Part shown: piece by piece, positions 34,529-37,772 of the stretch
Position numbering within the stretch: position 1 is the stretch's first letter
Layout: the number at the start of each line of letters is the position of its first letter
Assembly (NCBI GenBank): GCA_019244415.1
Contig: JAFASN010000084.1
Span: 1-64,000 of the forward strand
Length of the DNA: 64,000 nucleotides
From: Verrucomicrobiota bacterium
Lineage (GTDB): Bacteria; Verrucomicrobiota; Verrucomicrobiia; Chthoniobacterales; UBA10450
Direction of reading: 5' to 3'
Translations under genes and position numbers: made by a program
Notes under the pieces: generated by a model
What the model saw: the letters and a program-made list of their open reading frames with translations, nothing else
The model's database searches: none
Told to the model about the DNA's origin: nothing

Positions 34529-35008
34529 AGACTAACGTCGGGAAACCTCGAAACGTTGTCTCTTTCTCGAGGTGCATGCCATTTTTCTCCGCCACCCGTC
34601 GCGAGGCGTGATTCTCCGGATAATGAGCGAAATCACGCGATCGAGTTGAAGATCGCCAAAGGCATGATCACGCACCGCTTGCGCTGCTTCGCTGGCATAT
34701 CCGCGGTTCCAAAAACGCGAGTCAAGCCGGTAGCCGATCTCGATTTCATTTACCCCATCGATTTCCTGCGGCAGAAAACCGCAATAGCCGATGAGCTGGT
34801 CCGAAGCGCGCTCGATCACCGCGAAAGGCGCAAACGCGTTCTCGTTCGGCGCTGCGACCCAACGTTCAAGAAGCGCGCGCGATTCCGCTGGTGTTTTTGG
34901 GCCGAGCGAGAAGCGCATGAAGAGCGGATCGGCGAAAAGCTCGGTCATGCGATCGAGGTCAGCCGGATGAAAGGGTCGCAGAATCAGGCGCGCGGTTTCG
35001 ATTCTCAT
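34497..35008 (-). pseudogene. GNAT N-acetyltransferase with apparent frameshift near 34620
   Basis: Frame 1 gives ...LDRVISLI then unrelated residues; another frame continues PENHASRRVAEKNGMHLEKETTFRGFPTLVFAVSRECLFS*. Confidence 0.65.
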
Positions 35009-35048
35009 GCATCTATTGCGGTATGTTCACGCGAACGTAAGTTAATCG

Positions 35049-36311
35049 ATGGAACTCGCGCGCAAGCTCGCCATTCTCGCTGACGCTGCCAAGTACGACG
35101 CTTCCTGTGCCAGCAGCGGCACGGTCAAACGCGATTCGCGGCATGGCAAAGGCATCGGCTCAAGTACGGGCATGGGCATTTGTCATTCTTACACTCCGGA
35201 TGGCCGCTGCGTTTCGCTGCTGAAAATTCTGCTCACGAACTACTGCATTTTCGATTGCCTGTACTGCATCAATCGCGCGTCGAGCAATGTGCAGCGCGCG
35301 CGTTTTACCGCGAAGGAAGTGGTGCAGCTCACCCTCGATTTTTACCGGCGCAATTACATCGAAGGCTTGTTTCTCAGTTCCGGCATTATTCGCTCACCCG
35401 ATTACACCATGGAACAAGTGGTGGCGGTCGCGCGCACGCTGCGCCTCGAGCACGAATTCCGAGGTTACATTCACCTCAAGACAATTCCGGAAGCGGCGCC
35501 GGAGCTGATCACGGAAGCGGGACGTTATGCTGATCGAATTTCCATCAACATCGAACTGCCGTCAGCCGCCGATGTGGCGAAGCTCGCGCCGCAAAAAAAT
35601 TTCGAGAAGACGCAGATCGCGATGAACGAAATTCGCAATCGCATCGAGGAAGCAAAGGCAGCGCGGAGCGAAAACAGAAAAGTACCGCTGTTTGCGCCCG
35701 CTGGTCAGAGTACACAAATGATCGTGGGCGCGACCGCGGCGAGCGACGCGACGATTTTGCGGCAGGCGTCGTCACTTTACACGAAGCAGAGATTACGGCG
35801 CGTGTACTACTCCGCGTTTAGTCCTATTCCGGACTCATCCAGCAAGCTGCCGCTCGTCGCGCCGCCGCTGGTGCGCGAGCACCGCCTGTACCAAGCCGAC
35901 TGGCTGATGCGCTTCTACGGATTCAACGTGGAGGAGATCACGACATCGGCAGCGCCAAACCTTGACCTAAACATTGACCCGAAGCTCGCGTGGGCGCTCC
36001 GCAACCGCGACATCTTTCCCGTCGATTTGAACCGCTCGCCACGCGAATTGCTGTTGCGCGTTCCGGGCCTCGGGACCCGATCGGTCGAACGCATTCTGCA
36101 AGTACGCCGCTGGCACCGATTGCGGCTCGACGATCTGCCGCGCTTGCATCTGCCGCTGAACAAAGTGCTGCCGTTTGTAACCACCGCTGATTACAACGCA
36201 AAGGCGCTCACGATCGACGGGGACGAAGTCCTTGCGCAATTCCGAGCTGCCGATGCGCAGATGGAACTCTTCGCTGAAGGCGCGGCGTCTGCGATACACG
36301 GGCAGTTCTAA
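35049..36311 (+). CDS. Putative DNA modification/repair radical SAM protein (rSAM_link_UDG type)
   Basis: CIFDCLYC Cx3Cx2C cluster motif; C-terminal HhH-like LLLRVPGLGTRSVERILQVRRW; next to UDG fusion. Confidence 0.88.
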   Translation: MELARKLAILADAAKYDASCASSGTVKRDSRHGKGIGSSTGMGICHSYTPDGRCVSLLKILLTNYCIFDCLYCINRASSNVQRARFTAKEVVQLTLDFYRRNYIEGLFLSSGIIRSPDYTMEQVVAVARTLRLEHEFRGYIHLKTIPEAAPELITEAGRYADRISINIELPSAADVAKLAPQKNFEKTQIAMNEIRNRIEEAKAARSENRKVPLFAPAGQSTQMIVGATAASDATILRQASSLYTKQRLRRVYYSAFSPIPDSSSKLPLVAPPLVREHRLYQADWLMRFYGFNVEEITTSAAPNLDLNIDPKLAWALRNRDIFPVDLNRSPRELLLRVPGLGTRSVERILQVRRWHRLRLDDLPRLHLPLNKVLPFVTTADYNAKALTIDGDEVLAQFRAADAQMELFAEGAASAIHGQF

Positions 36312-36341
36312 CAGGGCGAGAGGGTAGCGCACGCGTGCATC

Positions 36342-37772
36342 ATGATTGAGATCACGTTTGTTCCCACCTTCGCCCACTGGCAGCGCGCGGCGCGAGAGGC
36401 GCTGCAACAGGAGCTCGCGCCGGAGGAGATCGCGTGGCAGGAACTGAGCTCCCATACGCCGTCGCTGCCGATCTTCGAGGAAAGCACCGACGCAAGCACC
36501 GGCGCAAGTACCAGCACGAAACAGTTTTTAGTGCCGAAGAAATTTGTCGAGCTCGCGAAACAAATCGCGTTGCACTCGGACGAGCAGCGCTGGGCTTTGC
36601 TTTATCGTATTCTGTGGCGGCTCACGCACGGCGAGCCAAAGCTGCTCGAGATTTTCGTCGATGCGAATGTCGCGCTCGCCCACGAGATGGCCAAATCAGT
36701 GCGTCACGACATTCACAAAATGCGCGCCTTCGTTCGCTTCCGTGAGATCAAGAACGAAGACGGCAGCTGGTTCGTCGCCTGGTTTGAGCCGCAACATCAC
36801 ATTGTTGAGCAGAACGCGCAGTTCTTCGTGGACCGTTTTGCTTCGATGCGCTGGTCGATCCTGACCCCGGAGCGTTGCGCGCACTGGAATGGAAGCGAGC
36901 TGAGTTTTACGTCCGGGCTGGACAAATCGCATGCGCCCAAAGACGACGCGATTGAAGGTCTCTGGCTCACTTATTATAAAAATATTTTCAATCCTGCGCG
37001 TGTGAAGGTGCACGCGATGCAGGCCGAGATGCCGAAGAAGTACTGGAAAAACCTGCCGGAAACAGCCGTCATTCCGGCGCTCTTGAATGAAGCGCCGGCG
37101 CGGGTGGAAACGATGATGAAATCGAGCGGAGACAAAATCGCGCAAGACAACGGCGACGTCTGGATGCGTGCGCCTGTGCCCGAGACCGCCAGTTTGAGCA
37201 AAGTGGCCGCGGCCTCTAAATCATGCACCGCCTGCCCGCTGTACAAACACGCAACGCAGACGGTGTTCGGCGAAGGCCCCAAGCACGCGACCGTAATGAT
37301 GATCGGTGAGCAGCCGGGCGATTACGAAGATGTCGCCGGGAAACCGTTCGTCGGGCCCGCGGGAAAAATGCTCGACCGCGCGCTTGAAGAGGCCGAGTTC
37401 GATCGCGCCGAGGTTTACGTCACCAACGCGGTGAAACATTTCAAATGGGAGCCGCGCGGAAAACGGCGCATTCACCAGAAACCAAGTGCGCGCGACATAG
37501 CGGCCTGCCGTCCCTGGCTGGAAGCGGAGCTGCGGTTGGTTCAGCCGAAGGTGGTTGTTTGCCTTGGATCGACTGCGGCACAGACAGTTTTCGGTCCGGC
37601 ATTTCGGGTGACGAAACAGCGAGGACAATTGCTCGAATCGCCGCTGGCCAAACGCGTCGTCGCCACGGTCCATCCTTCATCGCTGCTGCGGCAGCCGGAC
37701 GAAGAATCGCGCGAGCGTGAGTACAAGTTATTTGTGAACGATCTGCGCGTGGCGCTAAAGGCGGCGCGTTGA
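36342..37772 (+). CDS. DUF4130 (TIGR03915-type) domain fused to UdgX-family uracil-DNA glycosylase
   Basis: C-terminal GEQPGDYEDVAGKPFVGPAGKMLDRAL and KRRIHQKPSARD; N-terminal FVRFREIKNEDGSWFVAWFEPQHHIVE. Confidence 0.88.
   Translation: MIEITFVPTFAHWQRAAREALQQELAPEEIAWQELSSHTPSLPIFEESTDASTGASTSTKQFLVPKKFVELAKQIALHSDEQRWALLYRILWRLTHGEPKLLEIFVDANVALAHEMAKSVRHDIHKMRAFVRFREIKNEDGSWFVAWFEPQHHIVEQNAQFFVDRFASMRWSILTPERCAHWNGSELSFTSGLDKSHAPKDDAIEGLWLTYYKNIFNPARVKVHAMQAEMPKKYWKNLPETAVIPALLNEAPARVETMMKSSGDKIAQDNGDVWMRAPVPETASLSKVAAASKSCTACPLYKHATQTVFGEGPKHATVMMIGEQPGDYEDVAGKPFVGPAGKMLDRALEEAEFDRAEVYVTNAVKHFKWEPRGKRRIHQKPSARDIAACRPWLEAELRLVQPKVVVCLGSTAAQTVFGPAFRVTKQRGQLLESPLAKRVVATVHPSSLLRQPDEESREREYKLFVNDLRVALKAAR

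Follow-up and report, generated by a model that had tools for sequence, protein, structure and literature searches.

A radical-SAM and DUF4130 gene pair with an optional UdgX domain, a predicted LexA box and a clamp-binding-like tail in a Verrucomicrobiota bacterium

The window analysed here, a stretch of 64,000 nucleotides, contains two adjacent genes that lie on one strand and are separated by 30 nt (Table 1). The upstream gene encodes a radical-SAM protein of the TIGR03916 family, a radical-SAM/helix-hairpin-helix (HhH) family which we take to be the same as COG4277, and the downstream gene encodes a DUF4130 domain fused to a UdgX-type uracil-DNA glycosylase (UDG). Scans of the intergenic gap for sigma-70 promoters and terminators returned chance-level results, and the genes on either side (GNAT, PLD-like protein, GH15/trehalase-like, DUF6572) appear unremarkable. 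An earlier sequence-only reading had recognised the pair as one annotated in databases as rSAM_link_UDG and had considered its substrate chemistry not to be established. We concur on both points: the upstream protein matches TIGR03916 with 578 bits against a cut-off of 343.5, across model positions 1-402 of 415. Missing from that reading were the LexA box, the clamp-like tail, the insertion between imuB and dnaE2 and the prior papers.

Table 1 Features of the radical-SAM and DUF4130-UdgX gene pair in the window.
Feature	Position	Strand	Evidence
LexA box TGTTCACGCGAACG (TGTTC-ACGC-GAACG)	35024-35037	.	exact match to Verrucomicrobia-type motif
Radical-SAM protein, TIGR03916 (rSAM_link_UDG / COG4277), 420 aa	35049-36311	+	578 bits; AF2 model
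N-terminal region with three extra invariant Cys and invariant H46	35106-35210	+	61/61 aligned sequences
Extra Cys codons C20, C45 and C54	35106-35108, 35181-35183, 35208-35210	+	
CIFDCLYC, CX3CX2C [4Fe-4S]/SAM motif	35244-35267	+	C66, C70 and C73 invariant in 61 sequences
Helix-hairpin-helix DNA-binding motif, residues 325-354	36021-36110	+	Pfam HHH_3, below cut-off
Beta-clamp-binding-like pentapeptide QMELF, residues 404-408	36258-36272	+	pattern in disordered C-terminal tail
DUF4130-UdgX fusion protein, 476 aa	36342-37772	+	TIGR03915, Pfam DUF4130 and TIGR03914 matches
TIGR03915/DUF4130 domain, residues 8-241	36363-37064	+	profile match; 71-sequence alignment
UdgX-type uracil-DNA glycosylase domain, residues 243-470	37068-37751	+	TIGR03914, 300 bits; PDB 6AJO
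Motif A GEQPG, with UdgX-specific Gln (instead of Ala/Gly)	37305-37319	+	67/67 fused UDG domains
R-loop KRRIH; cross-linking His378 = codon 37473-37475	37461-37475	+	67/67 fused domains
Motif B HPSSLLR	37671-37691	+	alignment with UdgX

The radical-SAM protein carries both features that the sequence-only reading had noticed in it, the CIFDCLYC motif and a C-terminal HhH, the latter now placed at around residues 325-354, where it gives weak profile matches to the HhH regions of ComEA and RuvA. The invariance of the CX3CX2C cysteines among relatives argues for an active-type radical enzyme. The additional invariant residues C20, C45, H46 and C54 are all N-terminal to this motif, and the extra cysteines could possibly form a second cluster or a metal site. 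The AF2 model (mean pLDDT 88.9) shows a partial TIM barrel, and the closest of its best 50 PDB folds are HydE, HydG, biotin synthase (BioB), lipoyl synthase and MiaB. Spore photoproduct lyase was considered as an identity and rejected, as it appears neither among the NCBIfam matches nor in these best 50 folds. The nearest named relative, at 68%, comes from a Chthoniobacteraceae MAG, which together with the Verrucomicrobia-type LexA motif of the genome suggests a Chthoniobacterales-like verrucomicrobium as host. Many of the radical-SAM proteins end in a short tail of the [ST]G[EQ][LIF] type, which reads HGQF in the window protein.

The composition that the sequence-only reading had given for the second gene, a DUF4130/TIGR03915 domain joined to a UDG, also stands: the N-terminal domain scores 223 bits with TIGR03915 (cut-off 112) and 141 bits with Pfam DUF4130 (cut-off 27), and the C-terminal domain matches TIGR03914. 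As judged from the sequences, the E-values of the family matches rule out chance. The AF2 model of the DUF4130 domain, which covers 36342-37115, has a pLDDT of 91.2. A Foldseek search of PDB and BFVD with this model gave no match with E ≤ 0.001, and a profile search of PDB sequences found no relative. A recurrent likeness to DHH/RecJ-type phosphoesterases in PDB and BFVD was dismissed as insignificant (E about 0.01, TM about 0.2-0.3). The residues that are invariant in the 71-sequence alignment (H125, R132, F133, P150, F162, R165, W208 and R220) resemble a basic-aromatic surface that has no acidic metal-binding set, and the conserved residues contain no recognisable catalytic motif.

The UDG domain is highly similar to UdgX from Mycobacterium smegmatis (E 1.8e-65, PDB code 6AJO), with the GEQPG, KRRIH and HPSSLLR motifs identical in both. 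The GEQPG motif, the R-loop Arg (equivalent to R107) and His, and the Asn of the TN motif are present in all 67 fused UDG domains, and the motif B His and Arg in 65 of them. The other two UDG-superfamily genes of this genome differ in these motifs, one being family-4-like (GEAPG, without the R-loop) and the other carrying GQAPG, which tells the UdgX domain apart from its superfamily neighbours. In M. smegmatis UdgX, His109, activated by Glu52, forms a bond to C1' of the AP-site sugar (PMC10359453); the authors suggested AP-site protection and described the physiological role of UdgX as largely unknown. The fusion protein likely performs a similar cross-linking reaction through His378, which is encoded by exactly the codon that the sequence-only reading had assigned to it.

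The association between the two genes is close. The DUF4130 gene is located 3' of the radical-SAM gene and on the same strand in all 78 non-truncated named relatives; the two genes usually lie a few bases apart or overlap slightly, and in some cases a few hundred to ~1000 bases separate them. Co-occurrence is nearly perfect: among 388 genomes of the same phylum, the radical-SAM protein scored over cut-off in 34, TIGR03915 in 35 and both in 34 (hypergeometric P about 4e-48, a value that ignores phylogeny). The linkage and co-occurrence that the sequence-only reading had presumed are thus both borne out, and radical-SAM and DUF4130 form an obligate core (34/34 and 34/35 genomes), which we found in Proteobacteria, Verrucomicrobiota, Planctomycetota and Myxococcota. 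Roughly 50 genomes of the same phylum encode proteins of a sister radical-SAM/HhH family, whose scores with TIGR03916 are about 230-300 bits; in these genomes, no DUF4130 over cut-off was detected with TIGR03915. In six of the sister proteins (L183-L188; genomes G282, G150, G142, G040, G090 and G019), C45 and C54 are missing, as is the QxxLF tail at the C-terminus. TIGR03916-like matches of ~280 bits were therefore not accepted as family members.

UdgX is a different matter. It is fused to DUF4130 in 66 of the 78 named loci and absent from the other 12, and in a search that covered 376 of the 388 same-phylum genomes it was found over cut-off in 9 of the 34 that bear the pair and not in the remaining 25. 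A quick tree of 61 radical-SAM proteins requires 11 changes of the fused/split label, of which well-supported branches force at least 5, and contains a separate 14-member clade that is entirely without UDG. A close stand-alone UdgX is also encoded by a genome of the same family (G167, L115) that has neither the radical-SAM nor the DUF4130 gene. The label changes, the UDG-free clade and the stand-alone copies indicate that UdgX is an accessory that has been repeatedly gained or lost, and its absence from so many loci and genomes means that the core chemistry cannot need it. The proposal of the sequence-only reading that the radical enzyme and a suicide-type glycosylase form one necessary combination finds no support in this result.

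The LexA box upstream of the pair ends 11 nt before the radical-SAM ATG. The genome (3.15 Mb in 134 contigs) contains 29 matches to TGTTCN4GAAC, representing 24 distinct sites, versus 3 for a reversed-pattern control; at this frequency, any given stretch of 40 nt would contain a site with a probability of about 3e-4. The same motif precedes the genes for LexA, RecA-like/ImuA, IMS_C/ImuB-type and RmuC proteins in this genome, and the contig that carries lexA also has a DnaE-type polymerase gene a few kb away from it. The alphaproteobacterial LexA motif is not enriched here (66 matches vs 56 in the control). Relatives show the same arrangement, with 67 of 107 carrying the LexA box of their own clade: GAACN7GAAC is present in 55 of 78 named loci (mostly alphaproteobacteria; mostly ~25-60 nt upstream; shuffled mean 0.5 of 107) and 12 Verrucomicrobiota loci have boxes of the Verrucomicrobia type (shuffled mean 0.4 of 107). 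The type of box varies by clade and its position upstream of the radical-SAM gene is kept. The UDG-free basal clade is mostly without a LexA box of the tested types. A COG1573-COG4277 operon has been described as SOS-regulated in Bacteroidetes (PMC8565304), and Verrucomicrobia and Alphaproteobacteria are referred to in that paper for the same SOS operon, with citations to Erill 2016 and Paes da Rocha 2008. SOS control is hence already known for the family, and for this copy it is indicated by the sequence of the box.

Two observations on other genes concern the same regulon. The divergent GNAT acetyltransferase gene (34532-35008, minus strand) has its start 15 nt away from the LexA box of the pair and may therefore share SOS control. 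LexA-type boxes are also located 5' of genes for an HD-domain protein and a ~102-aa ORF elsewhere in the genome (L153 and L161; G000:C51:176 and G000:C84:20054), possibly further SOS genes.

The beta sliding clamp is bound by partner proteins through the motif QL[SD]LF. The window protein displays a variant of it, QMELF, in a C-terminal tail which AF2 predicts to be disordered (pLDDT about 42-54). This observation also holds for relatives: 70 of 110 have a match to Q[LMIV]x[LM][FLWY] within their final 60 aa, compared with a mean of 2.1 and a maximum of 6 for shuffled tails, and none was found in the protein bodies. The commonest forms are QLELF (18), QLSLF (15) and QMELF (7). The other 40 relatives have looser forms or none, many of them QLELDF, QLELNF, QADLF or similar. 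The motif is missing from the six sister-family proteins that we inspected (which have no DUF4130 partner). The radical-SAM protein is thus probably recruited to the beta clamp by its tail; our literature search found no paper linking radical SAM to a clamp-binding motif.

A minority of the named loci (11 of 80) lie close to imuA, imuB or dnaE2. In five sphingomonad loci (L069, L075, L083, L103 and L109) the pair is situated between imuB and dnaE2 with all genes on one strand, and in L084 dnaE2 is directly downstream of it. Apparent carriage by phages was rejected: in 'Acinetobacter phage MD-2021a' (L190, CAKLQH020000003.1) the pair lies beside glyS/glyQ and the record looks like bacterial chromosomal DNA, and unannotated faecal scaffolds labelled 'Bacteriophage sp.' were not accepted as phages.

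Several known systems resemble the pair in part. The imuA-imuB-dnaE2 mutasome is LexA-controlled too, and the pair is located within or next to it in some loci, but it is a polymerase cassette rather than a radical enzyme. SRAP proteins (YedK/HMCES) are SOS-associated and form a covalent AP-site adduct that shields the site. Their fold and chemistry are unrelated to those of UdgX, and we liken the two only in how UdgX may work. The solved structures of M. smegmatis UdgX (PDB codes 6AIL and 6AJO) have in common with the window protein the domain itself, GEQPG, KRRIH with the cross-linking His and HPS(S/A)(L/V)(L/V)R; however, these chains are UDG domains of ~210 aa, whereas in the window UdgX follows DUF4130 in a fusion and is linked with a radical-SAM gene. 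SplB is likewise a radical-SAM enzyme linked to DNA damage, and the present family has been called associated with SplB-like enzymes (PMC3765255, also a source on SRAP proteins). Unlike SplB, the window protein has an HhH region, extra cysteines and a clamp-like tail. The COG4277-COG1573 SOS operon consists of the same two families with the same adjacency and LexA control. It was framed as UDG-based repair (PMC8565304), whereas here UdgX is optional, DUF4130 is constant and a clamp-like tail is present. The naming of the pair and the SOS regulation of the family were therefore already known; new here are the finding that UdgX is optional, the LexA box upstream of this copy, the clamp-like tail and the placement between imuB and dnaE2 in some lineages.

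We considered three alternative explanations. Ordinary SOS-induced base-excision repair, in which the UDG would remove uracil arising from error-prone polymerases and the radical-SAM/HhH protein would be an accessory DNA-binding factor, is close to the reading of PMC8565304 and agrees with the LexA control and with the sharing of one operon by a UDG and an HhH protein. Yet UdgX over cut-off is missing from many of the loci and same-phylum genomes, as counted above; all fused UDGs carry the residues of UdgX, which point to a suicide cross-link and not to turnover (PMC10359453); and the invariant CX3CX2C marks an active-type radical enzyme. We regard this explanation as unlikely, although it is the foremost of the three. 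Next to it we would place the possibility that the target of the radical-SAM enzyme is RNA or a protein, such as DUF4130, UdgX, a polymerase or the clamp, and that DNA is affected only indirectly. Its fold resembles those of HydE, biotin synthase and MiaB most closely, and not that of an enzyme working on DNA, and DUF4130, being without a recognisable catalytic motif, might serve as substrate or carrier; the HhH region and the clamp-motif tail, however, indicate a location at DNA and the replisome, and we doubt this explanation too.

Least probable to us is programmed base modification or removal, the idea of the sequence-only reading, where the radical-SAM enzyme would make or erase a specific modified base that UdgX caps or removes. 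The family name, the HhH region and the association with DUF4130 could be accommodated by it, and it has been suggested that such radical-SAM enzymes may modify thymines (PMC3765255). Against it, SOS control suits a damage response better than constitutive modification, UdgX is dispensable, and the neighbour clusters that were listed include no recurrent methylase or restriction genes.

The optional UdgX, the LexA box, the clamp-like tail and the imuB-dnaE2 placement together point to a replication-associated damage response, and we think it rather probable that the pair is induced by the SOS response, is recruited to the clamp and acts on damaged template DNA, UdgX serving as an optional trap for uracil and AP sites. 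LexA would repress the pair through the upstream box, and DNA damage would free it together with lexA and the mutagenic imuA-imuB-dnaE2 cassette. The HhH region of the radical-SAM protein would hold the DNA while the QMELF tail tethers the protein to the beta sliding clamp, and with its obligate DUF4130 partner it would perform radical chemistry on damaged template DNA, presumably at or behind stalled or translesion-synthesising forks. Where fused, UdgX would remove uracil and then stay covalently on the AP site through His378, and the adduct would shield the site from cleavage, by analogy with the M. smegmatis UdgX reaction and in a role that we transfer to the fork. A more specific version, in which this replisome radical-SAM enzyme repairs a template lesion or readies it for bypass with DUF4130, an orphan fold, and UdgX, on one polypeptide with DUF4130, covalently seals uracil or AP sites, is one we put forward only tentatively.

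If this is true, the pair would constitute a new damage-tolerance pathway alongside the ImuB/DnaE2 mutasome. The clamp-like tail, the DUF4130 partner and the linkage to imuB-dnaE2 make its function open to specific tests, and the fusion of UdgX in an SOS operon provides a concrete setting for the physiology of UdgX.
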